From: a virus
DNA length: 56,059 bases
Virus record (IMG/VR): IMGVR_UViG_3300027865_000011
Span: 1-56,059 of that record
Reading direction: 5' to 3' (one strand)
A program made the translations under genes and the position numbers. Each line of letters starts with the position of its first letter. The stretch's first letter is position 1. Below the pieces are notes generated by a model, which saw nothing but the letters and a program-made list of their open reading frames with translations, was not told the DNA's origin and searched no databases. Of this stretch, positions 942-47,225 are shown in pieces.

Positions 942-1237
942 ACCTCTCAACAGCTGATGACCAAGATTGGGTGAACCTCGAGCTCACCATCGTCGACTTG
1001 GTTGGCTTCGGCTTCTCGGAGGACTACATCCTGAACATGGATGTCGAGAGCTTCGATGTCCTCGTTCAGCGAGTTTTAGAGGTGCAAGTCTGTCACAAGG
1101 TGGAAACACTTTGGTCACGCTTTCTTGCAGCACAGGGCACCAAGAAGGGTGTCCAAAGCATGGCGGAAGCCTTAGATCCGCGAAAACTGTCTCGCAGAAA
1201 GGATCCCAAGGATGGCTCTCGATCGCGGAGGACTTGA
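941..1237 (+). CDS. Probable frameshift extension of the tail chaperone (GT-like)
   Basis: About 98 codons in the -1 frame relative to the upstream chaperone, ending 26 bases inside the tape measure gene. From about base 945 the residues look like a real helical domain (for example DWVNLELTIVDLVGFGFSED), whereas the same frame before 940 is Arg/Pro-rich and looks out of frame. No good ATG or Shine-Dalgarno site starts it; the only close option is GTG at 971 without a visible ribosome site. The arrangement matches G/GT tail chaperones made by programmed -1 frameshifting. I could not find a canonical slippery heptamer; the nearest is CAAAAAC at 785-791, and a site near the 0-frame stop is also possible. 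The start given is therefore nominal. Confidence 0.5.
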   Translation, partial: DLSTADDQDWVNLELTIVDLVGFGFSEDYILNMDVESFDVLVQRVLEVQVCHKVETLWSRFLAAQGTKKGVQSMAEALDPRKLSRRKDPKDGSRSRRT

Positions 1238-10597: not shown

Positions 10598-10599
10598 CC

Positions 10600-11430: not shown

Positions 11431-11924
11431 TGCACGCTAACGAAAGGATCCTCCAAGCGGCTCGTTCCTGGCTCGGGGTCCCGTATCGAAAAGCCGGGAG
11501 AGATCGCCGCCGAGGAGTGGACTGCCTCAACTACGTGGGTCAATGCTTCCTCCAAGCTGGCATATCTCACTCACTGCCGGCTTGGAGGAACTACGAATAC
11601 GGATTCTGGAAAGCTCCTGGAGATGTCATCCTTGCTGCCATCGAGGACGGTCTACGTCTTCTCGGATCCGAGGTAGAGGTGGAGGAGTACCAATCTCTCG
11701 GCCGCGCCGATTGGCGTCCTGGTGATCTGGTTTGTGTTAGTCAAATGGAGGGTTTGAACAAGGCAACCCACGCTGTGATAGTGGAATCGGTTACCTCTCA
11801 TTCCGTTCGTATTCTACATGCTCGACAAGGTTCCGGGGGTTGCGTAGAATCTACTCGAATGCCTCCAAGTTGGCGGATGATCCGCTTGTATAGGTTCTTA
11901 GGATGGGAAGCCCCGGCAAAATAA
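11430..11924 (+). CDS. NlpC/P60 tail-tip peptidase, 164 aa
   Basis: A papain-like cysteine peptidase of the NlpC/P60 family, expected to cut peptide cross-links in peptidoglycan at the tail tip during infection. The start is overlapped by the previous stop (TGATG). Catalytic residues are visible as Cys32 in 'GVDCLNYVGQC', His114 in 'KATHAVIVES' and a third polar residue, probably His130 in 'VRILHARQGS'. The preceding 'ARSWLGVPYRKAGRDRRRGVD' pattern is typical of the family N-terminus. It lies between the hub and the large tip protein, as in gene-transfer-agent-like tails. Confidence 0.85.
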   Translation: MHANERILQAARSWLGVPYRKAGRDRRRGVDCLNYVGQCFLQAGISHSLPAWRNYEYGFWKAPGDVILAAIEDGLRLLGSEVEVEEYQSLGRADWRPGDLVCVSQMEGLNKATHAVIVESVTSHSVRILHARQGSGGCVESTRMPPSWRMIRLYRFLGWEAPAK

Positions 11925-14782: not shown

Positions 14783-14785
14783 ACC

Positions 14786-15238
14786 ATGATAGGAGACGGA
14801 AGACTACAACTGACCGAGGCGGCCCCGGGTTCACAGACCTGGCTCGCGCAGCTCAACGCGAACATGCTGGTGCTGAACGACACTTCGCCGGCGCAGTGGT
14901 TGGCCACCGCCGGGGAGACCATTTCAGCCGGGGACATAGTCGCTCTCGAGAGCGATGGCCTGTTCTACCTGGCGGACAGCAACCACGCATCCGTCCCTCG
15001 TAGAAACGCCTTCGGCGTCGCTTTGTCGGACGCGGCCTCTTCCGCGACCTTTGTTGTGCGGCTCCGGGGCCCTCTTGAGTCGACAGCTCATGGCTTCTCG
15101 CTCGCCAGCATTCTCTACCTATCAGAGACCGCGGGAGCCTTTACCACGACCCCGCCCACGACTCCTCGTATCGTGGGGATGGTGCTAACGGCCAATCTCT
15201 TGTGGCTGGATTGTCCTCGTAGTTGGGCTGCTGCATGA
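14786..15238 (+). CDS. Small virion protein after the tail tip, 150 aa
   Basis: Starts three bases after the tip protein stop. It is beta-rich, with 'AGETISAGDIVALESDG' near residues 49-65 and 'RNAFGVALSDAAS' near 77-89, a pattern seen in small decoration or fibre domains of the DUF2190-like type. A strong terminator follows, so it closes the long tail operon. Function is inferred to be structural; the exact role is unknown. Confidence 0.6.
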   Translation: MIGDGRLQLTEAAPGSQTWLAQLNANMLVLNDTSPAQWLATAGETISAGDIVALESDGLFYLADSNHASVPRRNAFGVALSDAASSATFVVRLRGPLESTAHGFSLASILYLSETAGAFTTTPPTTPRIVGMVLTANLLWLDCPRSWAAA

Positions 15239-15279
15239 TCGATCATTCGAACAGCGGATCTTGCTCGCTGTGTCTGCCT

Positions 15280-15320
15280 GGGGCGGCGGCTCCTTTTCGC
15301 GGCCGTCGCCCCTCCTTTTT
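15280..15320 (+). terminator. Rho-independent terminator of the tail operon
   Basis: GGGGCGGCGGC (15280-15290) pairs with GCCGTCGCCCC (15302-15312) through 11 base pairs with one G-U wobble, an 11-base loop, then TCCTTTTT. It lies between the 150-aa virion gene and the fibre-like gene. This separates the tail operon from the receptor-binding genes or reduces read-through into them. Confidence 0.85.
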
Positions 15321-15331
15321 GAGGTACCTCT

Positions 15332-16435
15332 ATGCCTGATCCTCCACTCCCAGGCCTCGGGGAACACGTTGGTGGTCGATACTATCAACTGACCAAGGGG
15401 TCTTTCGGCGAAGCCGGCTCCGCTGTTGATGTTTCCCGAACCAATCCTCAACCAGTCGATGACTGGAAACTGGAGATCCCAAGAGGCAACCGCCCCGGTC
15501 TGTCTCCAATGATCAAGTTCGGCGAAAATCCGAACATCAACAATAGCGGAGACTTCTTCCATCTTTGGGATGCTACGGGGCTCTACGCTCCTCCCACTAT
15601 TCCGCGTATCCACAATGTGGCATCCGACAACGCCGCTGATGCAGGAAACACCATCGTCAGTGGTACCGCAACTGGTGGCTCTGTACTCACCCTCGTAGAT
15701 ACCTCAGAAAACTTCGTAACTGCGGGGGTCGTAGCTGGTGATATCGTCCTGAGCGATACCAACTGTGATATTGGAATCGTTTCCTCCGTGGCCACGGACA
15801 CTCTCACGGTCAATGGTTTCCGAGACCCCGAAACGGGCTTTTTCGGCGACGCGATCTCTGCTGGTGATAGCTATCGAGTGGTCCACGAAGGCTCGACGGG
15901 TGCCTGTGTCGTTTATCTGCAAGGGCTGGACTCTTCCTTCTTGTTGGTGAATGAGTTCGTCGTCCTGAACGGTATCTCCGATGTGGCCACGGTAAACAGC
16001 TACATTCGCCAATACCGTGCTCGTTCTTTTGGGACTACCAGAGTCGCGACATTGGTGGGTGTACTGACCTCCACTGCCGTAGGAGACGGTACTGTCTCCT
16101 GTCAAATCAACGATGGCAAAAATCAGACCCAGATGGCCATCTACACGATACCCTTTGACAAGAACGCCTACATCCTCCAGTGGTGGGGGTCTTTGTCGAA
16201 GGCTGTAAACGCCATTTCCATCATCAATCTTCGTGTTGGCCAGCTTGATGGTTTCGGCTACATCGTGCAGCCCTGGTCGCTCTCTGCCTCTGGTCAGTCT
16301 AGCTTCTGCTACGAGTGGGGGACCCGTCTACCGCTCCCTGGCGGTGCTGATATCTGGATAGAGGCCAACTCCAACCTTCCAAGCACCGGCGTATCCGGTG
16401 GTTTCGATATCATCCTGGTTGACAAGGTATCCTGA
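15332..16435 (+). CDS. Fibre-like virion protein, 367 aa
   Basis: Begins 12 bases after the terminator T-run with GAGG eight bases before the ATG. The middle has a repeated beta pattern 'IVSGTATGGSVLTLVDTSEN' (about residues 107-126) and later 'QTQMAIYTIPFDKNAYI' (about 266-282). I associate these with adsorption or fibre-type structural proteins of environmental phages, from memory. No catalytic motif is seen. It is paired with the beta-helix spike gene one base downstream, so both probably belong to the receptor-binding apparatus. Confidence 0.55.
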   Translation: MPDPPLPGLGEHVGGRYYQLTKGSFGEAGSAVDVSRTNPQPVDDWKLEIPRGNRPGLSPMIKFGENPNINNSGDFFHLWDATGLYAPPTIPRIHNVASDNAADAGNTIVSGTATGGSVLTLVDTSENFVTAGVVAGDIVLSDTNCDIGIVSSVATDTLTVNGFRDPETGFFGDAISAGDSYRVVHEGSTGACVVYLQGLDSSFLLVNEFVVLNGISDVATVNSYIRQYRARSFGTTRVATLVGVLTSTAVGDGTVSCQINDGKNQTQMAIYTIPFDKNAYILQWWGSLSKAVNAISIINLRVGQLDGFGYIVQPWSLSASGQSSFCYEWGTRLPLPGGADIWIEANSNLPSTGVSGGFDIILVDKVS

Positions 16436-16436
16436 C

Positions 16437-18296
16437 ATGTCCAACGACATCTACATCGACTCTGTAACCGGGGATGCCGGTGGAGATGGCTCCGCTCGCA
16501 GTCCCTACCAGGCCTACTCCACGGCCCTCGCGGCCGGCATCTCGTCCGGCGACACCGTCTGGGTTCGTGGTTCTCTCGCCGAGCAGATCAGCCTCCTCGG
16601 GGGTGTGACCTACCGCAAGTGGGGTTCCGCTCGCTTCGTGGTCACTGGCGGTGGTGCTCGAACCTACTGCATGCACGCGGAAGACGGCTCCTCGGGATGG
16701 ACCGTGATCGGTGCTGAGTTGACGGCCGCCACTTCTCACGGCTTCGCTCTCGTGGGCTCTGGTAGTGGTCGCTTCTTCGGTTGCTACTCCCACGCGAACC
16801 CGGCCGGGAACGGCTTCGGCTCGGTGGCCTCCACCGCAGATGGAGAAGTCCACTTCTACGGCTGCATCACGGACAACAACCTTGACGGTTTCAGCGCGGT
16901 CAACACGGCCAAGTTCGTGTGCTACGACTGCGCGGCCACCACCGAGACCAATGGCTTCGAAGCCCTCGACGATGCCAACCTGAAAGCCTTCCGTTGTGTG
17001 GCCACCACCTGCGCAATCGCTTTCAACCTTCGCCACAACTCCGGTAGGGCCATCCTTGCCGGCTGTCAAGCCTACCTCTGCCAGGACAGCTTCCTCCATA
17101 TCCCCAGCTCCACCTCCCTGACCACCGCCATGGCGCAGCCCTCCACGTTGGCCTATGCCTGCGCGGGGGGCCTGGGCATTGCACCCTCCGCCGAAGCCGC
17201 GGGGTTCGTTGTGTCCGAAGGAGCGCATATGGACGTGCTCTCCTGCTCCGTCTACAACGCAGGGGACACGGTGGCCAGCAACCTTCTCATCTCCTTCGAT
17301 TGTCGGGACGCGGCCAACGCTGGGGGCATGGTCACGACCATTCGTGTCCTGGGGTGTGCCACCCACACCTTGGTGGATGTGCAGGCCTACCACGGGCGCG
17401 CATTCACTCCGGCGAATGTCCTGGATTGGGACTACAACGCCTATACCAGCGTCTCTGGTGATCGCTTCCTGATCGGAGCCGTTGCCAAGACTTTCGCCGA
17501 GTGGCAAGACGAGGCCAACCTGGATAGCGGCTCCTTCCAGTTCACCGCCGTGATGGTGGGGCCTCCGGTGAGCGAGGCCACGTTGCTGAATGCTCGGCTG
17601 ACTCCCACCACGGGCCCCGACACCCCCTTCGTCCCCAATCTCCAAACCTTGCTCGAGAGCAAGGGCCTGTCCTCGATCTGGACAGAACTGGCCTGGGCAA
17701 CTCCCGCCATTGTCGCTCGTGATCGGGATTTGGCGAACGCCAATCGCCGGGTCTTCGCATTCTCCGCTTCGATGGCCTTCTCCGCTGTCGCGGGGGGTGT
17801 CTTCGACGTCACCGAAGAGCTCTGGTTCCCCGGAGCCTTCCAGGAAGGCATCCTGGCCGGGACAGATACCGAAGTCCATGTCAACGCATCCGCCAATGGT
17901 GGCACCCTGCTCCTCGTAGACCGGGACTTCAACACGGCTCTGCTGGATCTCCGGATCAACAGGGAATCCGTCGCTGGTGATCGCTCCCGCCGCGTGGTGA
18001 TCATCGGAGGTTTCGTGACCCAGAACGCCATCACGGTCCCCACGAAGGTGGTGATCTGGGCGGGGAAGAAAGCCGCTGGCTTGCCTGTGGCAGTGGCCAT
18101 GTTGACCTACGCTCAGCAGATCCCAGAGAGGGCTCTTCCGCCCGGGATGGATGCCTACTTGGAAGTCGGCGATCCTGGGGTGGCCGTGCAAGGCGTTGGG
18201 GAGATCAACTACCGGATCGAGACCGTGGACGACGTCGACGGCCTCGCCGGTCCCAAGCCAGTCGGCGTCGGTCTCACTGCTGCGCGGCTGTCCTGA
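16437..18296 (+). CDS. Tail spike with right-handed parallel beta-helix, 619 aa
   Basis: ATG lies one base after the previous stop. The N-terminus 'DIYIDSVTGDAGGDGSARSPYQ' is the typical lead-in of pectate-lyase-like beta-helices (periodic Asp/Gly, then '...SPYQAYSTALAA'). Residues about 80-330 show repeated coils such as 'GFALVGSGSGRFFGCYSHAN' and 'GFSAVNTAKFVCYDCAATTE', each turn ending in small residues. Such spikes bind or degrade surface polysaccharide. The C-terminal third is different and may trimerise. The last 23 bases overlap the end of the convergent minor head gene. No strong terminator was seen between them. Confidence 0.75.
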   Translation: MSNDIYIDSVTGDAGGDGSARSPYQAYSTALAAGISSGDTVWVRGSLAEQISLLGGVTYRKWGSARFVVTGGGARTYCMHAEDGSSGWTVIGAELTAATSHGFALVGSGSGRFFGCYSHANPAGNGFGSVASTADGEVHFYGCITDNNLDGFSAVNTAKFVCYDCAATTETNGFEALDDANLKAFRCVATTCAIAFNLRHNSGRAILAGCQAYLCQDSFLHIPSSTSLTTAMAQPSTLAYACAGGLGIAPSAEAAGFVVSEGAHMDVLSCSVYNAGDTVASNLLISFDCRDAANAGGMVTTIRVLGCATHTLVDVQAYHGRAFTPANVLDWDYNAYTSVSGDRFLIGAVAKTFAEWQDEANLDSGSFQFTAVMVGPPVSEATLLNARLTPTTGPDTPFVPNLQTLLESKGLSSIWTELAWATPAIVARDRDLANANRRVFAFSASMAFSAVAGGVFDVTEELWFPGAFQEGILAGTDTEVHVNASANGGTLLLVDRDFNTALLDLRINRESVAGDRSRRVVIIGGFVTQNAITVPTKVVIWAGKKAAGLPVAVAMLTYAQQIPERALPPGMDAYLEVGDPGVAVQGVGEINYRIETVDDVDGLAGPKPVGVGLTAARLS

Positions 18297-34822: not shown

Positions 34823-36265
34823 ATGAGCACACAGAAGACGAACGTACCGACGGAGAGAAGTGAAACCATTCTCGAGGAGGCCGCGCGCATTGTAGACGGC
34901 CCGCGGCGGAAGGAGTACGGCCATCCGAAGGCCAATATCGGCCGGGTCGCCATCTTCTGGTCGGAAATCGTCGGCGTCCCCATTTCCCCCGCGCAGGTGG
35001 CCCTCTGCATGATCGCCCTCAAGATCGCGCGGCTCGCCCACAAGGTCGATCGGGACGGCGTGGTGGACATCTGCGGCTACGCCAGGATCCTCGAGCTGCT
35101 CTGCCTCGGAGCCGCGGAGGGTTCGGGTGGGGAGGATTCTGCGCAGGCCGCGGAGGAACCCCCAAGTGCTTCGCCGGGCACCAACTTCCAGGGATCGTGC
35201 CTCAACATCCCGGCGTCGGCGAGCGCCCCGAAGGAGCCTACCCCATCTCTGCGTGACCACACCGTACGCAGCAAAGGGCTTGACGCCTTGCACGAGGCGC
35301 TCAAGACAAGCCAGGCCGCCTTGCGGGAGCTTTCCCTCGAGCAGCGCATCTTGAAGCAGCGGATCTGCCAAGAGGCGCTCAAGATTCCGCCCTCTTCGAC
35401 CGTCGAAGACGCACCTGAACCCAAGCCAAAGCGCAAGATTTCGGAACTGATCGACGAGGCTGTTAGAGATGGTGCGGATGAGCCGTCGCCCTCTGCTTGG
35501 GCCCTGGCACACATCAAGCAGTACACCCTCCCCTGCCCCAAGGAGCAGCTCCCCAAGCACTGGGTCCGCAAGAAGGATCTGCGCACGGGCGAGTTCTTTC
35601 CCTTGCGAGCGAACGGGGCGATGTTGGTGGGCTTCTACGAAGACCACCCGATCAAGCTGCTCATCGACGAACAGGGCCGCCCCTGCACGCTGATCTACTC
35701 CGGGGCGTTCAGCCCTGGGCCGTCGTCGTTGACCCCCAAGCCGGACAGTCAATGGATTTGGGAGTGGGACGCAGACAAGAAGCTCTTCCGTAGAGACCTC
35801 ACTGCGACGGAGATCGATGGCATCCTGGCGGGGGTCTTCGGGTTCGACACGATAGGAGGCAACGGCTTCCGGATCTTCAGGGTGCTCGGGTACGAGAACC
35901 CCTACGCCGAGGAGCCCTCCAGAGAGGCCCCTCAGCCTACGCCTGAGCAGGAGACACCGGCCAGCCCGCCCTGCTCGACCTTCCCGCGCCGAGAGACCGT
36001 CAGCAGCTTCCGAGGGAACCCGGTGGAGCTCCTGATCGGTGCCGACGACATCCCCTACGCCCTCTTCTGCGCGTCGACCGTCATCCCCTGCAAGGCAGAT
36101 GATTGGGGACACGACGACGTGAGGACTGGATGGCTCCGGGATCTCTCCCCGGAGGAGATCGCTGCTTGGGCCTCCGAGTCGCTCACCTTCGAAGAAGTCT
36201 CGAACCACGGACCCGGCTATCTGGAGATCAGCACATCCACCACCATCCCTCCCGAGGAGGACTGA
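34823..36265 (+). CDS. Protein with N-terminal DUF6378-like domain, 480 aa
   Basis: Residues about 15-95 follow the DUF6378 pattern known from phages: 'ILEEAARIVDGPRRKEYGHP', 'IFWSEIVGVPISPAQVALCMIALKIARL', 'DGVVDICGYARI'. This small helical domain resembles MazG-like nucleotide-binding folds. A Pro/Ser linker and a coiled-coil segment follow (about 150-190), then an unknown domain with two related blocks ('HPIKLLIDEQGRPCTLIYSG' and 'NPVELLIGADDIPYALFCAS'), suggesting an internal repeat. The 92 bases upstream hold only a weak inverted repeat (GCCTCTC / GAGAGGC). GGAG precedes the ATG. Confidence 0.65.
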   Translation: MSTQKTNVPTERSETILEEAARIVDGPRRKEYGHPKANIGRVAIFWSEIVGVPISPAQVALCMIALKIARLAHKVDRDGVVDICGYARILELLCLGAAEGSGGEDSAQAAEEPPSASPGTNFQGSCLNIPASASAPKEPTPSLRDHTVRSKGLDALHEALKTSQAALRELSLEQRILKQRICQEALKIPPSSTVEDAPEPKPKRKISELIDEAVRDGADEPSPSAWALAHIKQYTLPCPKEQLPKHWVRKKDLRTGEFFPLRANGAMLVGFYEDHPIKLLIDEQGRPCTLIYSGAFSPGPSSLTPKPDSQWIWEWDADKKLFRRDLTATEIDGILAGVFGFDTIGGNGFRIFRVLGYENPYAEEPSREAPQPTPEQETPASPPCSTFPRRETVSSFRGNPVELLIGADDIPYALFCASTVIPCKADDWGHDDVRTGWLRDLSPEEIAAWASESLTFEEVSNHGPGYLEISTSTTIPPEED

Positions 36266-36266
36266 T

Positions 36267-36596
36267 ATGTCCGGAGCACTCCTGCATTTTCGCGACTGGC
36301 ATCGGGAAGTCCACTGGATCGTTTTCCACGACCAGCAGCGGGTGAAGAACACGATCGCTGCCATCAAGACCTACCAGTGGTACAAGACCGCGGGGCTGGT
36401 GTTCGATCCGAAGAACCCCCCGCCGGCCGATCGCCTCGAGCTTGCAGGAGTGTTCCGCCGTCGAACTCAGCAAGTGGTGAAGTTCGACGGCACCAAGGAT
36501 CTGCTGGAGCAAGGAGAGCTGGCCGAGAAGGTGGCTTGGATCCAGAAGGAATGCGGAAAACGAGGCATCCCGGTAACCTTGAGCGATTCCCAATGA
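36267..36596 (+). CDS. Hypothetical protein, 109 aa
   Basis: One base after the previous stop, with GAGGAGG upstream. Basic and aromatic N-terminal half ('HFRDWHREVHWIVFHDQQR', 'IKTYQWYKTAG'), then a helical part. Lies between the DUF6378-like gene and the primase-helicase, so a replication role is possible. No motif recognised. Confidence 0.55.
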   Translation: MSGALLHFRDWHREVHWIVFHDQQRVKNTIAAIKTYQWYKTAGLVFDPKNPPPADRLELAGVFRRRTQQVVKFDGTKDLLEQGELAEKVAWIQKECGKRGIPVTLSDSQ

Positions 36597-36652
36597 AACC
36601 CAGAAAACCACCTTCGGCCGCGCAGAAGAGACGTCGCGCTATCTGGCCCTGA
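36593..36652 (+). CDS. Possible 19-residue basic peptide
   Basis: ATG overlaps the upstream stop (ATGA) and the frame closes one base before the next ATG, so ribosomes could pass through it to re-initiate. Eight of 19 residues are Lys or Arg. Either a leader that couples neighbours or a micro-protein; chance cannot be excluded. Confidence 0.25.
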   Translation: MKPRKPPSAAQKRRRAIWP

Positions 36653-36653
36653 C

Positions 36654-37040
36654 ATGGTGGTCTCCTTTGGCATTCGAAAGACTCAAGAAGGCTATGCGGT
36701 GACCCGCAAAGCTGTCACCGAGGGTCTCATGGGGCCGACTTGGACGAAACGAGCCTACGCCCGGACGTTCAAGGTACAGCTGGAAGAGCTCTTGGCTAGT
36801 TGTGTAGCGGAGCTGCGGGACTCTGTTCCTTGGGCCACTATCCAGAGGGATACTCGACACTCGTTGACCTACATGACCAAGATGCGGCTTCTGGTAGAAG
36901 ACGACCCTGTGCTGTGGTGCTGGGAAGTCGATCAGCTCGTGCTGATGCTCTGTCTTTTTGCAGCCAACGAGTCTCAAGTGCCTATGCCTCCAGTCATGCT
37001 TGAGAGTTGCCGGGAAGCGCTTGAAAACTCCTACTTGTGA
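36654..37040 (+). CDS. Hypothetical protein, 128 aa
   Basis: No Shine-Dalgarno; starts one base after the 19-residue frame, so coupling is likely. All-helical, with 'KRAYARTFKVQLEELLASCVAELRD' and a hydrophobic C-terminal half ('LWCWEVDQLVLMLCLFAANES'). Just upstream of the primase-helicase. Unrecognised. Confidence 0.5.
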   Translation: MVVSFGIRKTQEGYAVTRKAVTEGLMGPTWTKRAYARTFKVQLEELLASCVAELRDSVPWATIQRDTRHSLTYMTKMRLLVEDDPVLWCWEVDQLVLMLCLFAANESQVPMPPVMLESCREALENSYL

Positions 37041-37049
37041 CACACGCCC

Positions 37050-39683
37050 ATGCCTCAATGGCCAAACGTAACCGTCTTGCATTACCGGAACACCCGAGGC
37101 ATCAACGCCTACGGGGACGAAGCGCCGAAGCTTCCTGTGATGCCCCTCAAGACCGCGTTGGAGAAGAGGTGGGTCACAGACTCCCACATGACCGGCTACT
37201 TGCTGCACCACGACGCCTCTGAGGTCTATGCAAAAGATGGGGAGATGGTCAGGGTCAACAAGCCATCTCTCGAGTCTTTAGCCAGCGAAGGGTTCTCTGT
37301 CCTGACCAGTGTGGTCCTCGTAGATCTCGATCTTCCCAAGCACATCTTTTGGGACGAAGAGCAGCTGGCGCTGTTCCTCGAAGCCTTCGAAACCGCCAGC
37401 ACCCAAGACGAGATGTTGAAGCAGTGGCACGCTTTCTATTCCACGAGATCCGGTGCTCGTCTCGTCTACGCGCTGGATCGGCCGGTGCCCTGCCCCGCGG
37501 CGGAAGGAGTGATTAGGGGGATCCTCTTTCGGATATCGCAGACAGCTCTCGGCCCCTACACAGACACCAGCACCTACGACTTCACTCGACTGTTCCGGCT
37601 TCCTCAAGTGACTCGGGACGGTCATCCTTCTTGGGAGCAGGACTACTGCCAGCTCGAGTTTCAGCCCGAGCAACCGCTCTTGGCCACGAAAAACATCGCC
37701 CCGATCCTGACCACGGCGAAGAAGTACGGGAAGGTTCTACGGATCACGGGGGATTGCCCCGGGGCCGACGAAGCCAAGGCGTGGCTCACCATAACCAGCG
37801 AGACCACCGGGCAGCCCGTGATGAGCGAGTGGTTCAAACGGGCGAGGAGACAACTCAAAGGCCGAGAGAGCGCCGACCTGATAGACGGGAAGCTGGACCT
37901 CGAGACCTGGCCCGACGGAAGGAACAACGGCCTACGCTTCTGCGTCGGGCAAGCGGTGAACCTGCTCTACCTCCTGCCAGGAGCAGACCCGAAGCTGCTC
38001 TTCGCCCTCTTTGTGGACCCTTGCGAGCAGCTCGAGGCAAGGACCGGGGACGATGACGGCAAGTCTTGGTTGGACATCCTCTGGCATTTGACCACTCATT
38101 GCTGGGAGAAGGAGTCGGCCAGCGTTCAGGTGGAGGACGCGAAGCGTGAGCACGTGGCCCTTCAATCGGGCAAGATCTCCCTGGACATCTTGACAGGCAT
38201 GAGGAAGTGGTGCTCTTGCTCTATCGTGCATGGCCCGGAAGTCGAAGCGATGCTCTGGCTGAATCGGTATCTGATCGTGTTCTGCGACGGGTTGTACTAC
38301 GTGATGCGCCCCGACGGTTACTACGACAGCGTGGGCGTGGGCGTGCCCAACTTGGTCGCCCGAATCCGAGAGTTGGGGATGCAGGGGATCATTCCCATAG
38401 AAGAAGAGGTGGTCGTAGGTGGGCAGGTGGTTCGGCGAGATGTCCCGACACAGAGGATCATCAACCGTCATGTTTCGGTCGTCCCCTACTGCGCCGGAAT
38501 CGTGGGCACCGCCGGAAGCGTCGTGCGGGATCTGGGCACAGACTCTGCCACGTTTCAGTTCAAAATGTACTCGAGGCGCACCGACATTGATCCGCAGTGG
38601 TCCGACGAAGTAGACGCTTGGATGGCAGCGACCTTCGGAGAGGCCTACGAAGAGGTGAAGAACTGGATAGCCCACGCCTTGAACTTCGAAGGCGGCGGGA
38701 TCTGCGCGCTCAGCATCAATGCGCCGCCGGGCATCGGCAAGAAGCTTCTCCTCGAAGGCCTCGCGGAGTGCATCGACACCAAGGCGGTAGCCAGCGCCAA
38801 GGAGCTGACGGGGCGCTTTCAATCCATGATGCTCAGCACGCCCTTCCTATCCATCAACGAAGGTCTGCCCAAGGTATCCCGCGACGGGAGCAACGACCCC
38901 GCTGACTCTTTCCGTGCCTTGATAGCCGGAGACACCCACAAGGTGGAGCAGAAGGGCCGCGGCATCATCTCGATCCACAATCCGATGCGTATTGTGATCA
39001 CCGCGAACAATGACAGAATCCTGCAAGACTTGTACGGCAACCAAGACCTAAGCCCCCAGGACCGGGCAGCTCTCGGTAAACGCATCCTCCATTTCGATCT
39101 TGGAGCCGAGGGAGAAGCGTGGTTGCGCAGGAAGGGAGGCATGGCCTACACCGGGAACCCACAAAGACGATGGATCCGAGGCGACGATGGCCGACAGAGC
39201 CACTGGCTGATGGCCAGGCATTTCTTGATGCTCTACAAGCATCGTCTTCCTGTCCCGATCGGCAACCGTCTCTTGGTTGAAGGAGACCCAGACAGCGGCA
39301 TCGTCCGAGAGATGGCCGTGTCAAGCGGTGGGTCGCCAGAGATCATCGAAGTGATCGTGAGGATGACGGAGGAATCGCAATTCCCCCCAGGGATCCAGCT
39401 AAAAAACGGGGGCGTCTATGTGTCCGCCCTCGGCGTGCGAGACTTCCACACACAGCTCTTTCCCTTCGAGAAGAAGCTGAGGCTCTCCCGGGTGAGCTCG
39501 GTACTTCGGGGCCTGTCCTCGAGGAGTGCCAGCCAAGCTCGACAACTCCACGGCCCAGGCACGCCGAAAGTCCGAGCTTGGAAGATCGACACGAATATCC
39601 TGATGCGACATGCAGACACGAACGGACATCCTTGCGAACGCCTAAAGGATCTGGTAAGCTCCAACGCGAACGCGAACGAATAA
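37050..39683 (+). CDS. Primase-helicase (AEP-like primase plus SF3/D5-like helicase), 877 aa
   Basis: Probably makes primers and unwinds DNA at the origin. The N-terminal third looks like an archaeo-eukaryotic-type primase domain: 'VVLVDLDLPKHI' near residue 89 and 'STRSGARLVYALDRP' near 131. The C-terminal half is a helicase-like ATPase: 'NAPPGIGKKLLLEGL' near 556-570, 'TPFLSINEGLPK' near 600 and 'MRIVITANND' near 650. The P-loop is unusual: Lys replaces the Ser/Thr after GK, and Asn replaces the Asp before the Walker B Glu. Start site is uncertain (no Shine-Dalgarno before ATG 37050). Confidence 0.78.
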   Translation: MPQWPNVTVLHYRNTRGINAYGDEAPKLPVMPLKTALEKRWVTDSHMTGYLLHHDASEVYAKDGEMVRVNKPSLESLASEGFSVLTSVVLVDLDLPKHIFWDEEQLALFLEAFETASTQDEMLKQWHAFYSTRSGARLVYALDRPVPCPAAEGVIRGILFRISQTALGPYTDTSTYDFTRLFRLPQVTRDGHPSWEQDYCQLEFQPEQPLLATKNIAPILTTAKKYGKVLRITGDCPGADEAKAWLTITSETTGQPVMSEWFKRARRQLKGRESADLIDGKLDLETWPDGRNNGLRFCVGQAVNLLYLLPGADPKLLFALFVDPCEQLEARTGDDDGKSWLDILWHLTTHCWEKESASVQVEDAKREHVALQSGKISLDILTGMRKWCSCSIVHGPEVEAMLWLNRYLIVFCDGLYYVMRPDGYYDSVGVGVPNLVARIRELGMQGIIPIEEEVVVGGQVVRRDVPTQRIINRHVSVVPYCAGIVGTAGSVVRDLGTDSATFQFKMYSRRTDIDPQWSDEVDAWMAATFGEAYEEVKNWIAHALNFEGGGICALSINAPPGIGKKLLLEGLAECIDTKAVASAKELTGRFQSMMLSTPFLSINEGLPKVSRDGSNDPADSFRALIAGDTHKVEQKGRGIISIHNPMRIVITANNDRILQDLYGNQDLSPQDRAALGKRILHFDLGAEGEAWLRRKGGMAYTGNPQRRWIRGDDGRQSHWLMARHFLMLYKHRLPVPIGNRLLVEGDPDSGIVREMAVSSGGSPEIIEVIVRMTEESQFPPGIQLKNGGVYVSALGVRDFHTQLFPFEKKLRLSRVSSVLRGLSSRSASQARQLHGPGTPKVRAWKIDTNILMRHADTNGHPCERLKDLVSSNANANE

Positions 39684-39684
39684 C

Positions 39685-41370
39685 ATGAGCAACCTACCCC
39701 CAAGAGCCTGGACCACGACGTCTGCTTCCCAGATCAAAACCTACGAACTGTGCCCAAGAAAGTGGTGGCTCGAGAAAAGAAAAAGGCTACCTACCGAGCA
39801 CAAGGGGTACCTTTTCTACGGAACGGTCATCCACAACATCGCGGAACGGTTCTTCCGAGCCAGTGACACGGGCCGCGACGCTAAGACAGATGCTCCGGTG
39901 GAGCTCTTCCCGCCTGGTTGGGATCAAGTGCGCGACGGCTGGAACAACGATGGGGAGATCGTGTTCGTTTGCTCGGACGAAGAACGCGACCGCATCATGC
40001 TGCAAGTCGCCGAGGCTATTGCCAACGGAACGTGGGAACGACGACCGGATCGAGAGGTAGAGAGCAAGTTCGTGTTCCCGGTGGGCGACACAGGGGTGGG
40101 GATGTTGGGGTACATCGACCTTTGCATGCCCGGCGAGGTGCAAGACCACAAGACGGCCAAGAACGCTCGATACGCCACTACTCAAGGCAAGTTGAAGAAG
40201 GGAGACAAACAGCTTCTGATCTACGCCAAGGTCATGGCCGAAGCGCTTCGAAAGGGCAGCGGAGCGGACCCGGACAGGATCCTTGTCGGACACAACGTCT
40301 TTCGGAAAGACGGGGTGCCTCCGTACCGGGTGGAGGTCTTCTACTCCGTCGAGATGATCGACGAAGCTTGGGAAGCTGTGATCGAGACCACGCGCGAAAT
40401 GCTCCGCGCGTCCAAGATTGTGTCGCTTGCCGACATCGACAAACCAGACGCCAAAGCATGCTGGGCCTACGGCGGATGTCCTTTCCAAGGCGTGTGCGGC
40501 CAGCGTGAAACTCTCGAGAGATACGAGAAGCGGGTCAAGACCCTAAACGAGACTCGTGCTCAACTGATCCAAGCCCAGTTACAAGGAGATTCCGACATGA
40601 CAGTGTTCGATAAACTGGTCGCGTTGAAGCAAGGTGCTGCAGCAGCAGCAGCAGCCCCGAGCTCACCCGCCGAAGCGATCGCGGTGAATCCGCCCAAGGC
40701 AGCCGGCGTCGCCCGAAGGATGGCGCCTTGGGCGGATGCTGCGTGTCCTGCGTGCGACGAGAACGACGTTGGGGGCTTCAACTCCAAGGGGAACCTCTGT
40801 CGAATCTGCGAGACCTCTGCACCAAGCCGAGGTGTCGACCCTCCCATTTCCCGGTACGAGCTAGATGGTGCTTACTCGTGGCGGCTGAAACTACCGGTTG
40901 AGCAAGCACCCGCCGCGACCACGGTTGCTGAGCAAGCAGCAGCTGCTACGGTCGTCGAGGAGCGGCCGGTGGAGGAAGAGCCGCCCGTGCTCTTGGCCGA
41001 AGAGAAGGCGCTTCCCACCAAGAAAGTTCCGGCAGAGAAGGCTGGCAAGGGCCGTCCACGGAAGAGCTTCACTCTTTGCGTCGGTTGCGCCCCCCTCGTC
41101 ATGCCGAACCCGAACAGCAACTACGTATCAGGGGATCAGCTCTTCTTGCGATTCCGCGAGCAGTTCTGCGAGGAGAAGGGGGTAGACAGCTACTGGGAGT
41201 ACGACAACTTCGCTCGCCGCAACTGCATGGCTCTCGCAGCCGAATCGATAGGGGACACTTTGGGCACTCGCACTGTGGTGTTCTCTTCGTCACACACTCC
41301 AGACGTGCGCGCGTTCGTGGAAGCCCTCAAGGCCGTCGCGTCGGTCGTCTACGTAGCCACCATGGGTTGA
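39685..41370 (+). CDS. Cas4/RecB-like PD-(D/E)XK nuclease with Fe-S cluster site, 561 aa
   Basis: Residues 1-285 form a RecB/Cas4-type exonuclease domain: 'SASQIKTYELCPRKWW' (Cys23), His50 in 'GTVIHNIAERF', Asp145, 'EVQDHKTAKN' (Asp154, Lys156) and 'QLLIYAKVM'. Cys23 with Cys259, Cys265 and Cys271 ('CWAYGGCPFQGVC') would hold a 4Fe-4S cluster. Residues 305-561 are a different part: an Ala-rich linker, a CxxC pair ('ACPACDEN', 'LCRICE') and a C-terminal domain. An internal start with a strong ribosome site lies at codon 305 (next entry). Likely works with the adjacent SNF2-like helicase in recombination or end processing. Confidence 0.85.
   Translation: MSNLPPRAWTTTSASQIKTYELCPRKWWLEKRKRLPTEHKGYLFYGTVIHNIAERFFRASDTGRDAKTDAPVELFPPGWDQVRDGWNNDGEIVFVCSDEERDRIMLQVAEAIANGTWERRPDREVESKFVFPVGDTGVGMLGYIDLCMPGEVQDHKTAKNARYATTQGKLKKGDKQLLIYAKVMAEALRKGSGADPDRILVGHNVFRKDGVPPYRVEVFYSVEMIDEAWEAVIETTREMLRASKIVSLADIDKPDAKACWAYGGCPFQGVCGQRETLERYEKRVKTLNETRAQLIQAQLQGDSDMTVFDKLVALKQGAAAAAAAPSSPAEAIAVNPPKAAGVARRMAPWADAACPACDENDVGGFNSKGNLCRICETSAPSRGVDPPISRYELDGAYSWRLKLPVEQAPAATTVAEQAAAATVVEERPVEEEPPVLLAEEKALPTKKVPAEKAGKGRPRKSFTLCVGCAPLVMPNPNSNYVSGDQLFLRFREQFCEEKGVDSYWEYDNFARRNCMALAAESIGDTLGTRTVVFSSSHTPDVRAFVEALKAVASVVYVATMG
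40597..41370 (+). CDS. Possible internally started C-terminal product of the nuclease gene, 257 aa
   Basis: In frame with the nuclease. AAGGAGATTCCGAC precedes ATG 40597, at ideal spacing. The same 18 bases (GGAGATTCCGACATGACA) occur in the protease gene at 51498-51515, again at an in-frame internal start between two domains. The product would hold the zinc-ribbon-like CxxC pairs and the C-terminal domain without the nuclease. In phages such internal starts make stand-alone partner proteins. Translation is not proven. Confidence 0.4.
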   Translation: MTVFDKLVALKQGAAAAAAAPSSPAEAIAVNPPKAAGVARRMAPWADAACPACDENDVGGFNSKGNLCRICETSAPSRGVDPPISRYELDGAYSWRLKLPVEQAPAATTVAEQAAAATVVEERPVEEEPPVLLAEEKALPTKKVPAEKAGKGRPRKSFTLCVGCAPLVMPNPNSNYVSGDQLFLRFREQFCEEKGVDSYWEYDNFARRNCMALAAESIGDTLGTRTVVFSSSHTPDVRAFVEALKAVASVVYVATMG

Positions 41371-41384
41371 GCTGAGGAAATCCT

Positions 41385-43538
41385 GTGCCGAATGCCCTGC
41401 ATAGATTCTTGGAGCGCCGAGCGGCAGAAGCTCAGCAGAAAGCACTTGCGACACCCACTGCGGTGGCCGCGGCGCTTTCTGCTGCCAAGAGCTCTTCAGA
41501 GGGCTCTGCTCCAGACAGGGCGAATCCTCTGCATGCCTTCTTGACCAACCAACAGGCAAAAGAAAACCCCGCGGCCTATGCCGAGGTGCGCAGGATCGTG
41601 AGGCTGCCGACGGTCGACGGATACCCACAAGAAACCCGAGATGCCTACCAGCGAGAGGTTGTGATCGCCGAGCATCTCGAACGAGGGTTTCGTCTCTACG
41701 ATCTGCAATGCGACGCGGTGCTCGCCTACCGAGACCATGGCTGCCTTTTCGCTCCTATCGGTGTGGGCTGGGGGAAGACGCTCATCACGTTGCTGATCGC
41801 AGGGGAGGCCTTCGCGAAGGGTTTCCATCGGAGCATGCTGATCGTGCCTCCCCAAGTCATGTCTCAGCTCATTCGGAGAGATCTGCCCTGGGCACGGCAG
41901 AGGGTGGCTCTGCACGGCGTCCCGTTCATCCAGGTGTTGGGCTCGCCAGCAAAAAGGATGGCCATAGCCGGTAGCGGACGGAGGGGCTGCTACATCATGC
42001 CGTCGTCGATGCTGTCTGCCCCCAACGCCGAGGACGTGCTCCAAGCCATCGCTCCACAACTCGTCATCGGCGACGAGGCCCACCATCTCCGCAACCCAAA
42101 CAGCGCGAGGACGAAGCGGTTGCTGCGCTACATGAACAGCGTCGCGCCGGAGGTAGTCTGGCTCTCTGGCACAATCACCGCCAAGAGCGTGCTGGACTAC
42201 CTGCACCTCGTCTGTCTCATGGATGGTCTGTGTCCGCTCCCCAGGAAGAACGCCATAGCCCGAGAGTGGGCCGCGGTGTTGGATTCTGGGGCAGAACCCA
42301 ACGAGCGCGAGACAGGCCCCGTGCGGCCGTTGATAGAGTGGACCCTCAAACTCCCAGGAGCTCCTGACTGCCCCATGAACGGCATGGGATTTAGGAGAGC
42401 CTACAAGCACCGGTTGCTCACCAACCCGGCTGTCGTGGCGACTGGGGACCAGGAACTGGGGGTCTCATTGACCATCGCCCAGCGCAGAGTGCCTTTGGAG
42501 GAGGGCGCCCCCGGAGCCACCGAACTGCGAGAGCTCCAGCAGGGCGTCGATACTCAGTGGGTAGCGCCCAACGGGGACGAGATCGATCACGCATTCCACA
42601 AGTTCCGATGGCTCTTCGAACTGTCCGCAGGCATCTTCAATGACCTCTTCTGGCCAGCACCCGAAGTCTTGGCCGCGCGCCGAGACATCTCGGAAGCCGG
42701 CGCAAGCGCTCTGCTGCACAAAGCCAAAGAGCACCACGAGCACCTTCAAGAGTTTCGAAAGACTCTGCGCTCTTGGCTGCTATCCCATCATATTAAGGGT
42801 CTCGATACCCCATTCCTGGTGGCTGGCGACATGGCCCGGCACCAAGGAGCAAACGTGGGATTAGAGCTCTACGAAAGCTGGCGCTCGGTCAAGGATCTGG
42901 AAGACGCCACCCCAGATCTGCCGGTGCGAGACAGCCGCATCGTCCGAGTGTGCGACTACAAAATCCGATTTGCCGAAGCTTGGGCTCGAGAGCACCAGAA
43001 AGGAATCATCTGGTACCACAACGCAGGAGTGGGGCAGTGGTTGGCGGAACGATTGCCGGACGCGCTGTTCTGTCCTGCGGGACGGCCGCACGATGCAGCG
43101 ATCATCGACCCCGAGACAGCCAACCGCATCGTGATAGCGAGCATAAGCGCCCACGGTACCGGGAAGAACCTCCAACACCACAGTGACCAACTCTTCGTGC
43201 AGTGGCCGAGACCTGCGGCGACAGCCGAACAAGTTCTTGGGCGCTTGCATCGCGTGGGGCAAATGGCCGACGAGTTGGTGGTCAATATTGCTTGCGACCT
43301 TCCAATAGCCCGCGAAGGGCCCGCTGCTTTCGATGAGCTTCTCTACGCAGCCATGCTTCAAGATGCTCTGTACATCCACCAGACCACCGGGTCTAGACAG
43401 AAAGTGATCTATGCCAACTACGAAACGCTTCCCAGGATTTTCCCATCCGCTGTCCTGGAGGAAAGAGGATTTGAACTGACCCACAGACTCGACGCATCGC
43501 AGCAGAAGACTCTCACCGAACGCTTCTCCAACGCCTGA
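41385..43538 (+). CDS. SNF2-like SF2 helicase/ATPase, 717 aa
   Basis: GTG start at 41385 with GAGGA upstream. Walker A 'GVGWGKT' (126-132) and DEAH box 'GDEAHH' (229-234), with motif III 'WLSGTITAKS' near 257-266. The C-terminal half has 'VQWPRPAATAEQVLGRLHRVGQ', the motif V-VI arginine-finger region typical of SNF2-type translocases. The N-terminus has two short related segments ('NALHRFLERRAAEAQ' and 'NPLHAFLTNQQAKEN'). Probably a DNA translocase in replication or recombination, alongside the Cas4-like nuclease, single-strand binding protein and polymerase. Confidence 0.88.
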   Translation: MPNALHRFLERRAAEAQQKALATPTAVAAALSAAKSSSEGSAPDRANPLHAFLTNQQAKENPAAYAEVRRIVRLPTVDGYPQETRDAYQREVVIAEHLERGFRLYDLQCDAVLAYRDHGCLFAPIGVGWGKTLITLLIAGEAFAKGFHRSMLIVPPQVMSQLIRRDLPWARQRVALHGVPFIQVLGSPAKRMAIAGSGRRGCYIMPSSMLSAPNAEDVLQAIAPQLVIGDEAHHLRNPNSARTKRLLRYMNSVAPEVVWLSGTITAKSVLDYLHLVCLMDGLCPLPRKNAIAREWAAVLDSGAEPNERETGPVRPLIEWTLKLPGAPDCPMNGMGFRRAYKHRLLTNPAVVATGDQELGVSLTIAQRRVPLEEGAPGATELRELQQGVDTQWVAPNGDEIDHAFHKFRWLFELSAGIFNDLFWPAPEVLAARRDISEAGASALLHKAKEHHEHLQEFRKTLRSWLLSHHIKGLDTPFLVAGDMARHQGANVGLELYESWRSVKDLEDATPDLPVRDSRIVRVCDYKIRFAEAWAREHQKGIIWYHNAGVGQWLAERLPDALFCPAGRPHDAAIIDPETANRIVIASISAHGTGKNLQHHSDQLFVQWPRPAATAEQVLGRLHRVGQMADELVVNIACDLPIAREGPAAFDELLYAAMLQDALYIHQTTGSRQKVIYANYETLPRIFPSAVLEERGFELTHRLDASQQKTLTERFSNA

Positions 43539-43587
43539 CAACTCTCAGGCGTGAGGACAGCTTCCCGAACGAATACAAGGAGACAGC

Positions 43588-44109
43588 ATGGGACTTTTTG
43601 ACAAGATCTCGCAAGTCAAAGCCAGCCAGAATGCCGACTACTTCCGGCCCGGCACCTACGTGGTTTCGGTGGATCGGGTCAAGACGGACAAGGCCCGATC
43701 AGGTTCTGAGTACGTCGCGGCCGAAACCACGATTTTGGCGGTACTCGAGGTAAAGCACAACGCGGACGGACAGCCCATGTCTCACGCGGTGGGGGATCAG
43801 CCGTCTCACCTCATCATGGATGGCGGAAATGGGAAAGACATGTTTCTTCCCAACGTCAAGGCCATGGTCATGGGCTTGATCGGTTGCGAGGAAGCCGACG
43901 TCGACGCCGAGGCTTGTCAGCAGATGGTGAGCGCTTCGCAGCCCATGGCCGGTCTCGTCGCCAGGGTGGAGGCTCGAGAGATTACCACGAAAGCTGGTAC
44001 CCCCTTCACGAAGGTCTGCTGGATTGGCACCCTGACCCAAGCCGAGTTCGCGGCGCTGGAGGTTCCGGTACCTGAGGGAGCAGTCTTCCGAGACATCATT
44101 ACTACGTAG
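43588..44109 (+). CDS. Probable ssDNA-binding / replication accessory protein, 173 aa
   Basis: Strong ribosome site AAGGAGACAGC. The build ('YFRPGTYVVSVDRVKTDKARSG' ... 'ETTILAVLEVKHN' ... 'LVARVEAREITTKAGTPFTKVCW') resembles the OB-like DUF669-type phage single-strand binding proteins, in which a beta barrel alternates with Lys/Thr loops. Place between helicase and polymerase supports this. A strong terminator follows at once. Confidence 0.55.
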   Translation: MGLFDKISQVKASQNADYFRPGTYVVSVDRVKTDKARSGSEYVAAETTILAVLEVKHNADGQPMSHAVGDQPSHLIMDGGNGKDMFLPNVKAMVMGLIGCEEADVDAEACQQMVSASQPMAGLVARVEAREITTKAGTPFTKVCWIGTLTQAEFAALEVPVPEGAVFRDIITT

Positions 44110-44126
44110 AATTACTCGTGCTTGAA

Positions 44127-44171
44127 GGGGGTTGAGGGCAAGCTGCCGTTGCTTCTCAACCCCCGCTTTTT
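44127..44171 (+). terminator. Rho-independent terminator of the replication operon
   Basis: GGGGGTTGAG (44127-44136) pairs perfectly with CTCAACCCCC (44155-44164), with a further inner GCAA/TTGC pair, then GCTTTTTC. It lies 17 bases after the ssDNA-binding gene and 15 bases before the methyltransferase start. Confidence 0.9.
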
Positions 44172-44185
44172 CGGGAGAGAACAAC

Positions 44186-45130
44186 TTGGCAACGTACTAC
44201 AACGAAATCGATCCTTTCGCTGTGTCCTGGTTGCGAAATCTGATCTCTCGGAAGTTGATAGCCGATGGTGAGGTAGATGACAGGAGTATAGAAGATGTTT
44301 CCCCAGCAGAACTCCGGGGATACAAGCAATGCCACTTCTTCGCAGGGATCGGTGGATGGTCACTTGCCCTGCGACAAGCAGGATGGCCGGATGATCGATC
44401 AGTGTGGACAGGATCCTGCCCTTGCCAACCTTTCAGCACGGCAGGTAAAGGAGAGGGGTTTGCTGACAAGCGGCACCTGTGGCCCTCCTTCTTCTGGCTC
44501 ATCCAACAGTGCAGACCTGACACTGTCTTTGGGGAACAAGTTGCAGGAAAGCCAGGTCAAGCTTGGCTCGACCTTGTATCGACAGACCTGGAAAATGAGC
44601 ACTACCGCTGCGGGTCGGCAGTTACCGCGGCTTGTGGCGTCGGGGCGCCGCATCTTAGACGACGCATTTATTGGGTGGCCGACACCCACGGTAAAAGACA
44701 GTTCGAACGCCAGGAACCGAACAGCTCAAAGAAGCTCCCAAGACAGCAAGCACCACGACGGAGAGACGTTGGTGGATGCTGTGGACCTCACAGGATGGCC
44801 GACGCCCAGCGCGAACGAAGCAGGAGGAACCCCAGAGCAATTCCTCGCACGCAAACGAAGAGCTGTCGCACAAGGGAAGTCCTTGGGGATCTCGTTGACG
44901 AGTTTGAATCTTGTGGCGGGCCTGACAGGCCCCAACCGACGAACGGCTTCTGGCGAGATCCTGATTGGCTCCTCTGCCGAGATGACAAGTGGCGGTCAGT
45001 TGAACCCGGAACATTCCCGTTGGTTGATGGGCTTCCCGGCCGAGTGGGAAGACTGCGCGGATACGGGAATGCAATCGTCGTCCCGCAAGCGCGCCAGTTC
45101 GTCGAAGCCTACCAAGAAGGAAGCAATTAA
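44186..45130 (+). CDS. C5-cytosine DNA methyltransferase, 314 aa
   Basis: Dcm-type enzyme that methylates cytosine C5, likely a solitary modification gene protecting phage DNA, as no restriction enzyme is seen. Motif I '[12 protein letters not shown]', motif IV '[12 protein letters not shown]' with catalytic Cys, motif VI-like 'VFGEQVAG', motif VIII '[10 protein letters not shown]', motif X '[16 protein letters not shown]'. TTG at 44186 is chosen: GGGAGAGA lies just upstream and the longer frame runs back into the terminator. An independent long open frame overlaps it (next entry). The DNA polymerase starts one base after the stop. Confidence 0.9.
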
Positions 45131-45131
45131 G
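44295..45131 (+). CDS. Overlapping open frame inside the methyltransferase gene, in phase with the DNA polymerase
   Basis: 279 codons without a stop in another frame across most of the methyltransferase gene, running straight into the polymerase. It reads like a protein: '[19 protein letters not shown]', '[19 protein letters not shown]', two 'GWPTP' repeats and '[20 protein letters not shown]'. I recall similar hypothetical proteins annotated over phage dcm genes, with the same GWPTP and 'RWLMGFPPEW' segments. The latter also resembles a C-terminal signature of other phage DNA methylases. ATG 44295 has no convincing ribosome site. It could be a real second protein, a 976-aa polymerase fusion, or a by-product of methyltransferase codon conservation. 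Confidence 0.35.
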
Positions 45132-47225
45132 ATGCGTCTGATAGCGATGGACACCGAGACCTACCCGATGAAAACAGGGTGCACACTGCCCAAGCCGGTG
45201 TGCTTGCAACTCGCCACCAGGGCCAGCGAGGACGCATTAGAGATCGAGGTGCTTCTGCGAGACGACCCAAGAGCTCTCCAACTCTTGATTGGTGCCCTCC
45301 AAGATCCCGAAGTCCACTTCACTGGAGTCTACATAGCCTACGACTTCGGGGTGCTCTGCGGTCAGTGGCCCCAGCTATGGTCCCTCGTCTGGCAAGCCTA
45401 CGAAGACGAGCGCATCCATGATCTAACCCTCATGGACAAGTTGCTGCGGATCAGCACCACCGGGGATATCGAATACTTCTCCCTGCCAGACGGATCCCGC
45501 GGGAAGCTGGGCTACACGCTTAGCGATCTTGAGAATCGCTGGCTGGGCGTCGATCGATCGGAGGATAAAAAATCGGCCGACTCTTGGAGGGTCCGGTACT
45601 GCGAGCTGGATGGCGTCCCTGTGGCGGAGTGGCCCGCAGATGCTCTGCGGTACGCAAAGGACGACGTGGTAGGTCCTCTTCTGGTCCACGAAGCAATCCT
45701 CCAAGAAGCCAACCAAGAGGGGCACGGCAGCATCGTCACAGAGGCCTTTCAGGCGGCCACCAGCTTCGTCCTGTGCCTTTCAACGGCGTGGGGCATGGAA
45801 GTGGACCCCGAGCGCGTGGCGCGCTTGGCAAAGGCTCTCGACGAACGGATCGGCCCGGAGAAGATGCAACCGCTCTACGATGCAGGGCTCTTGTCTCCGG
45901 CTGTTCCGCCAATGCCCTACGCCAAAGGCACGATCGACAAAGCGACTGGCTTGGTCAAGATGAAGAAGGCCAAGCCAGAGGCCCGCAAGGATACAGACAT
46001 CAAAAAGTACATCGAGAAGATGTGCAACGACCGCGGTCTCGAAGTCAAGAGGACGCCCACCAACCAAGTCTGCAAAGACGCTGATGTACTCCGCCGGCTC
46101 GGAGATCTGGGCCTCCCTCTGCTGAGTCTCCTCGCTGATAGAGAAGAGATCATCAAGCTGAGAAGCACCTACTTACCGGTCTTGCAGAACGATCAAGGCG
46201 TAGTCCACTTCGGCTTCAACGCCTTGGTGACATCTGGCAGAACTTCCAGCCACGGAAGCAAGCTTTTCGCCTCCACCAACGGACAGAACCAGCCACGAGC
46301 CGGCGGAGAACTGTCCACGCGAGAGTGCTTTGTAGCACGCAAGGGGTGGATCCTTTGCGCGTCGGATTACGCGGGCCAAGAGTTGACTTCTGTAGGCCAA
46401 GTGACCCACAGTCTCTTCCCCGGCCAGAGCAAGCACCGCGAAAAGAACCTCGCTGGCTACGACCTGCACGCCTTCTTGGGCGCTCAACTCTGCGCCCATA
46501 TGGACGAAGACTTTGGGCAACTCGTGACCTCGCGCGGGCTGGATATCGATGAGACCTATCGAGCATTCCTCCAGTTCAAAACCTCCGAGGACGAGGAGCT
46601 TCGAAGACTCTTCCAGCATTACCGCCGGTTCGCGAAGCCCACGGGGCTGGGGTACCCCGGCGGATTGGGGCCCAAGACGTTCGTCGAGTTCGCCCGCGCC
46701 TCCTACGGGGTTGTCGTCGATCTGGCCACCGCGGAACTTCTGCGAAATATTTGGTTCAAGACCTACCCTGAGATGCGGCAGTATTTCAGCTGGATCAACG
46801 GACAGACAGACCCGCGCAACGTGGGCAAGCATGCCTACAAGTCGCCCATGGGCATGTACCGCGCGGGTTGTCGTTTCCCCGAAGCGGCCAACGGAATGGC
46901 GATGCAGACTCCCTCAGCAGAAGGGGCCAAGATCGCGGACTTCCGAATCACTCGGGAAATGTACGACCCTTCTCAGGGGTCGATTCTCCTCGGCTGTCGG
47001 ATGCCGAACTTCATCCACGACGAGTTTTTGACTGAGTTGCCGGACGATGATCGCGCACACGATCGCGTTATGCGTATCGAGGAACTCATGGTAGACTCGA
47101 TGCGCATGATTCTGCCGGACGTGGAAAGCAAGGTCGAGTCCGCGCTGATGTACAGGTGGTACAAGAGCGCCGAACCTCGCTTCGACGATACAGGTCGGTT
47201 GATCGCTTGGGAGCCAAACAAATGA
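45132..47225 (+). CDS. polA: Family A DNA polymerase with 3'-5' exonuclease, 697 aa
   Basis: Replicative polymerase of the Pol I family. Exonuclease motif 'MDTETYP' (Asp7, Glu9) opens the protein. Motif A is '[12 protein letters not shown]' near residues 409-420 (usual form DYSQIEL), motif B '[16 protein letters not shown]' near 497-512, and motif C 'HDEF' near 629. In motif B the residue equivalent to E. coli Phe762 is Leu, and Tyr766 is replaced by Gly in the phage-type 'PGGLG' loop. AAGGAAG lies about nine bases before ATG 45132, one base after the methyltransferase stop; an upstream in-frame extension exists (previous entry). Confidence 0.95.

Follow-up and report, generated by a model that had tools for sequence, protein, structure and literature searches.

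A second frame within a phage cytosine methyltransferase gene probably encodes the other chain of a two-part enzyme

Results

Two reading frames in one segment of DNA

In the window, by which we mean the whole stretch of 56,059 nucleotides of viral DNA that was analysed, a C5-cytosine methyltransferase gene (alpha) is overlapped in its +1 frame by a second long frame (beta), and a family A DNA polymerase gene follows directly (Table 1). The best start of alpha is the TTG behind GGGAGAG, and its stop is the TAA at 45128-45130. A Pfam profile search matches alpha to PF00145 (E 1.9e-17), with the PCQ, E[NQ]V and RxR motifs at 44420-44674, and these features, together with the M.HhaI fold of its model (see below), place it among the C5-cytosine DNA methyltransferases. 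It does not, however, qualify as a single-chain member of that class: motif IX is found only in the +1 frame, and the region after motif VIII is neutral and largely predicted to be disordered. The +1 frame itself is open from 44292 to 47222, with an ATG at 44295. The preliminary description of this DNA, which had reported a stop-free frame lying across the methyltransferase gene and continuing unbroken into the polymerase, was accurate on this point, and both the GWPTP repeats and the 17-residue segment that it quoted are present in the frame. In a PHROG profile search beta matches phrog_1008 (E 2.2e-31, positions 9-283 of 329). The wider context is that of a tailed phage, with tape measure, tail and structural proteins, exonuclease, helicase and polymerase (1212-18296 and 34823-47225); an ORF at 34823-36265 has, over its N-terminal part, matches to PHROGs named phosphofructokinase.

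Table 1. Features of the two overlapping frames and of the adjoining polymerase gene in the window.
Feature	Position	Strand	Basis or remark
Alpha Shine-Dalgarno-like GGGAGAG	44173..44179	+	sequence
Alpha, C5-cytosine methyltransferase chain (motifs I-VIII and X)	44186..45130	+	TTG start, 314 aa; PF00145, phrog_363
Beta Shine-Dalgarno AGGAG, inside alpha Arg-Ser codons	44282..44286	+	AGG codon excess across loci
Beta, +1-frame protein up to the polymerase ATG	44295..45131	+	279 aa; phrog_1008
Alpha motif I	44333..44362	+	sequence and alignment
Alpha motif IV, PCQPFS including the catalytic cysteine	44420..44437	+	sequence and alignment
Alpha motif VI region (GEQVAGK)	44531..44551	+	sequence
Beta conserved predicted beta-hairpin (begins STLYRQTWK)	44568..44642	+	invariant residues; best-predicted part of the beta model
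Alpha motif VIII region	44642..44674	+	sequence
Alpha segment without detectable constraint on the protein, mostly predicted to be disordered	44675..44947	+	same DNA as the beta cassettes
Beta WPTP cassette 1	44676..44795	+	60% identical unit in L111
Beta WPTP cassette 2	44796..44930	+	72% identical unit in L103, 65% in L225
Beta motif IX (predicted)	45000..45050	+	logo from 199 distinct peptides; corresponds to motif IX in solved methyltransferases
Alpha motif X	45041..45079	+	alignment; C-terminal helix after the motif has pLDDT >90
Family A DNA polymerase	45132..47225	+	PF00476, phrog_17; own Shine-Dalgarno-like GAAGGAA; in frame with beta

The second frame is kept open across the family

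Taken by itself, the openness of the +1 frame in the window is unremarkable: permuting the synonymous codons of alpha gives an expectation of 1.7 stops in the +1 frame and a probability of about 0.10 of finding none. The picture changes when homologues are considered. Among 79 distinct loci, namely the window and 78 others picked by their methyltransferase frame only (from the best 80 of 580 candidates, hence closer relatives), 76 have no internal +1 stop where the same permutation predicts 4.6, and the stops observed total three as against 233 expected. In the +2 frame each locus has some 7-26 stops. The preliminary description had proposed checking homologues for stops in the alternate frame, and nearly all of them prove to have none. 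Relatives of beta are encoded in 229 of 50,697 phage records.

Selection acts on the second frame only where it overlaps the first

We classed nucleotide differences by their effect in both frames, using counts, uncorrected for multiple hits, from 54 independent pairs from which identical cores had been removed. Within the overlap, the alternative frame yields a dNN/dNS of 0.47 (0.41-0.54) and a dSN/dSS of 0.36 (0.31-0.43), whereas in the part of the methyltransferase gene just upstream of the overlap the same ratios are 1.08 and 0.94, indicating that the second frame is silent in that part. A locally reduced mutation rate might mimic such a pattern; doubly silent sites, though few, change at similar rates in both parts (0.56 and 0.60), which argues against this. 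The preliminary description had also suggested looking for constraint on synonymous sites of the methyltransferase frame: there is a strong excess, and it is confined to the overlap.

How the constraint is shared between the frames depends on the region. Where beta lies over alpha motifs I-VIII, beta is constrained (0.56 and 0.35 for the two ratios). From motif VIII to the C-terminal box, no constraint is seen on alpha, with a dNN/dSN of 0.96 (0.85-1.07), and beta is again constrained (0.44 and 0.29), so that the DNA of this middle region is maintained for beta. A distant subfamily (46 pairs) agrees with the main set, giving alternative-frame ratios of 0.42 (dNN/dNS) and 0.28 (dSN/dSS). As judged by comparative analysis, these results confirm the +1 frame as a second real protein-coding gene under purifying selection, constrained beyond what the first frame imposes. 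Of the options raised in the preliminary description, a second conserved protein encoded in the same DNA is therefore the one supported, by openness across the family and by selection specific to the frame.

An initiation site for beta is written into alpha

The start of beta is housed in an alpha motif, DxRSIxDV, whose codons are chosen in an unusual manner. The arginine is encoded by AGG in 61 of 156 loci (39%, compared to a background of 6.9%), and the excess is present in the methyltransferase-selected set alone (35 of 74, p ~2e-21). The aspartate is encoded by GAT in 133 of the 156 (85% versus 38%), a choice that provides ATG for beta. This ATG is found in 125 of the 156 loci, about 20% having none at that position. 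Codon usage thus points to an internal Shine-Dalgarno sequence and ATG of beta that are maintained through unusual codon choice in alpha. In the distant subfamily the ATG of beta often comes 4 nt after the start of alpha (53 of 124, for example ATGAATGAG); where both starts fall within 4 nt in this way, as in L242, L257, L277 and others (L numbers denote individual loci), beta and alpha overlap from the first codons onwards.

Beta is built of exchangeable cassettes and ends in a predicted motif IX

Beta consists of a Ser-rich N-terminus, the conserved predicted hairpin, a run of WPTP units (mostly one to six, with a median length of 35 residues each) and a terminal LNPxxxxWLMGxPxxW, the last derived from a logo of 199 distinct peptides. 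Units sharing 90-100% identity turn up at different ranks along beta chains that have only 37-59% identity in their N-terminal parts, and a single complete unit distinguishes L253 from L355; the WPTP units therefore behave as exchangeable cassettes. The units in L103 and L225 that match cassette 2 of the window come from beta chains with different numbers of units.

Profile searches with beta return no family in Pfam or NCBIfam (isolated weak Pfam matches in single members were disregarded), and no relative was found among PDB sequences. AquI-like beta chains likewise have no Pfam match, so that the identity of the terminal motif rests on three other lines of evidence. First, in L488 motifs I-VIII, IX (LNAKFVEYMMGLPVGW) and X (GNGVVPQQ) share one frame, which covers positions 2-317 of the 324 in PF00145. 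Second, LNAKFVEYMMGLPVGW of L488 aligns with residues 274-310 of M.HhaI, the known motif IX-X segment, although as a local segment the alignment is weak by score. Third, when a profile of such segments is searched against the PDB, DRM-type cytosine methyltransferases come out on top (E 0.0011). By these comparisons, the terminal motif of beta is motif IX of the C5-methyltransferases.

Natural variants move motifs between the frames

The arrangement of the window, with beta in the +1 frame relative to alpha and motif X on alpha, holds for 298 of 332 loci. In seven, two of which are one and the same contig, alpha stops shortly past motif VIII, and the cassettes, motif IX and motif X are all in beta; L253, L266, L365, L391 and L474 are loci of this kind. 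Motif X was called in both chains in none of the 332. That it is found in alpha or in beta and never in both is difficult to account for unless both chains belong to one enzyme. A third arrangement, in L448, L465 and L488, has motifs IX and X in frame 0, with an open +1 frame containing LPTP/WPTP units persisting upstream, and implies that the division of labour between the chains varies.

To gauge how general the layout is, we sampled 65 viral methyltransferases by the pattern PCQPFSxAG, which is blind to the second frame. Motif IX lies in the +1 frame in 61 of them (a regular expression picked out 49, and the others were recognised by eye); the other four are the three frame-0 cases just mentioned and L487, an ordinary single-chain enzyme. 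At L014, L016, L214 and L243 the relation between the frames changes inside the gene; these apparent frameshifts possibly reflect decaying prophages or sequence errors.

Structure models

The AlphaFold model of alpha has a pLDDT of about 95 for most of residues 1-150, and Foldseek returns M.HhaI as its best match. The model reproduces the large-domain fold of M.HhaI and contains no small domain; confidence is high for the catalytic part and the C-terminal helix, and residues 194-244 are unstructured (pLDDT <50). Beta modelled alone is poor (pLDDT 62, pTM 0.27), for which reason its recognition-domain fold stays putative. A poor lone model might be what one sees of a chain that folds only with its partner, but is not positive evidence that this is so.

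Discussion

A probable single enzyme in two chains

The computations show both frames to be coding and under selection, and they assign to beta a conserved initiation site of its own and a predicted motif IX, to which motif X is added in some loci; the evidence that beta is translated comes from sequence. What might the two proteins do? We consider it highly probable that alpha and beta are two chains of a single C5-methyltransferase, one catalytic and the other providing the recognition cassettes and motif IX. One DNA segment would then give rise to two proteins, each from its own start. Alpha would be the catalytic large domain with motifs I-VIII and X, and beta would supply what alpha is missing, a target-recognition region composed of WPTP cassettes together with motif IX. 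The two would assemble into a two-subunit enzyme that modifies phage DNA, probably as a defence against host restriction, and the WPTP cassettes would choose the sequence to be methylated.

Several other explanations deserve consideration. Beta might be a genuine product of the overlap with a function of its own, such as that of a regulator or an anti-restriction factor, while alpha works alone. That alpha has the catalytic motifs as well as motif X fits this idea, as does the want of a Pfam or NCBIfam family or a PDB sequence relative for beta. We nonetheless regard it as unlikely: motif IX belongs to beta, which also has the sole motif X in some loci with an alpha that stops shortly past motif VIII, and alpha contains no constrained recognition region.

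Alternatively, a programmed +1 frameshift after motif VIII might join alpha to the second frame and so produce a single-chain enzyme. The +1 frame does supply the region that alpha is missing, and for loci such as L253 and L266 the fused product would be a complete methyltransferase. However, a locus of the window type would lose its motif X, the conserved Shine-Dalgarno sequence and ATG begin beta far upstream, and beta is constrained over motifs I-VIII, a part that a frameshift product would not translate. A mechanism of this sort therefore seems very unlikely.

The preliminary description had offered a polymerase with a long N-terminal extension as its other option. In this record the frame is indeed unbroken: beta has no stop before that of the polymerase, and translation from 44295 would give a beta-polymerase fusion of 976 residues. 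To this extent the suggestion holds for this genome, as a read-through. As a general explanation it fails and is extremely improbable, given that the polymerase has an ATG and a Shine-Dalgarno-like sequence of its own and that, in nearly every other case, the beta ORF terminates close to the alpha stop. Only 1 nt separates the alpha TAA from the polymerase ATG, a spacing suggestive of translational coupling. The read-through in the window may be a real fusion or may come from a wrong base in the viral record; a search for relatives with the same gene order at the polymerase junction found none and returned one distant polymerase relative.

Finally, that the second frame is an untranslated by-product of codon bias and conservation in the methyltransferase can draw on the unexceptional openness of the window alone but has next to no probability, being refuted at the level of the family by the 76 open loci among 79 where 4.6 were expected and by selection limited to the overlap, and further opposed by the internal start signal and by a region in which only the second frame is constrained.

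Relation to known methyltransferases

The two-chain reading has precedents. The small subunit of M.EcoHK31I (YGGCCR) is encoded in another frame within the large-subunit gene, and the same nesting is seen in the window and in 298 of the 332 loci. The larger chain of this two-polypeptide C5-methyltransferase comprises motifs I-VIII and X and the smaller chain motif IX (PMC3404938), a split that the window pair reproduces. That the phage pair works like M.EcoHK31I is well supported, the likeness being drawn from the described motif layout. There are also differences. M.EcoHK31I is described as an isolated restriction-modification enzyme, whereas the pair is widespread in phages and its beta is built of exchangeable WPTP cassettes. 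Moreover, the predicted recognition domain of M.EcoHK31I is placed in the larger subunit (PMC3404938); this speaks against recognition in beta, unlike the phage loci themselves, where the DNA of the putative recognition region is constrained in the beta frame.

In M.AquI, alpha has motifs I-VIII, and the distal variable region and motifs IX-X belong to beta (PMC3404938). The window differs in having motif X in alpha, but the five loci named above, in which motifs IX and X are on beta, show this split; in loci of the type of L253, L266 and L474, which share the M.AquI division, the overlap with the beta ORF extends over all or most of alpha, and in this they depart from M.AquI. With M.HhaI the likeness is confined to the large-domain fold of alpha and the aligning motif IX, since M.HhaI and other single-chain C5-methyltransferases have all motifs in one chain and one frame. 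Phage C5-methyltransferases of the SPR and phi3T type are multispecific, with several recognition modules. The phage pair resembles them in having several exchangeable modules per enzyme, but its modules, for which a role in specificity is putative, sit in a separate overlapping frame.

The literature searched gave no account of the phage overlap or of its motif division. New with respect to that literature are the spread among phages, the selection that would place the recognition region in beta, the exchange of cassettes and the shift of motif X between frames. A broader proposal, which we judge to have an even chance of being right, is that nested two-chain C5-methyltransferases are the common form among phage PCQPFSxAG enzymes. 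The second frame would house a library of cassettes over an alpha segment that needs only to stay open, in-frame swaps of blocks would re-assort specificity while leaving the catalytic chain intact, and motif X would be mobile between the frames.

The pair appears to be a very widespread long same-strand gene overlap, and it provides a large natural data set in which one DNA segment serves two proteins, with catalysis probably in one frame and recognition in the other. If the two-chain reading is true, expressing the annotated gene alone would yield enzymes that are inactive or wrongly assessed, and one would need to look among ORFs at present labelled hypothetical for what gives many phage methyltransferases their specificity.

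Annotation of the pair

The phrog_1008/phrog_363 families correspond to the same pair of frames, including the 'Mte8-like' ORF30 of K1G inside the methylase ORF31. Phrog_1008 is already labelled 'DNA methyltransferase', and the pair is catalogued as separate families or as hypothetical proteins. This pair is mostly misannotated: one frame, the other, a fragment or neither has been called. Deposited annotation is accordingly erratic. Both frames are called in K1G (L232, 'Mte8-like') and only alpha in epsilon15 (L233); phage Riah (L540) has neither frame, and phage ZS04 (L541) has an antisense ORF and a fragment.
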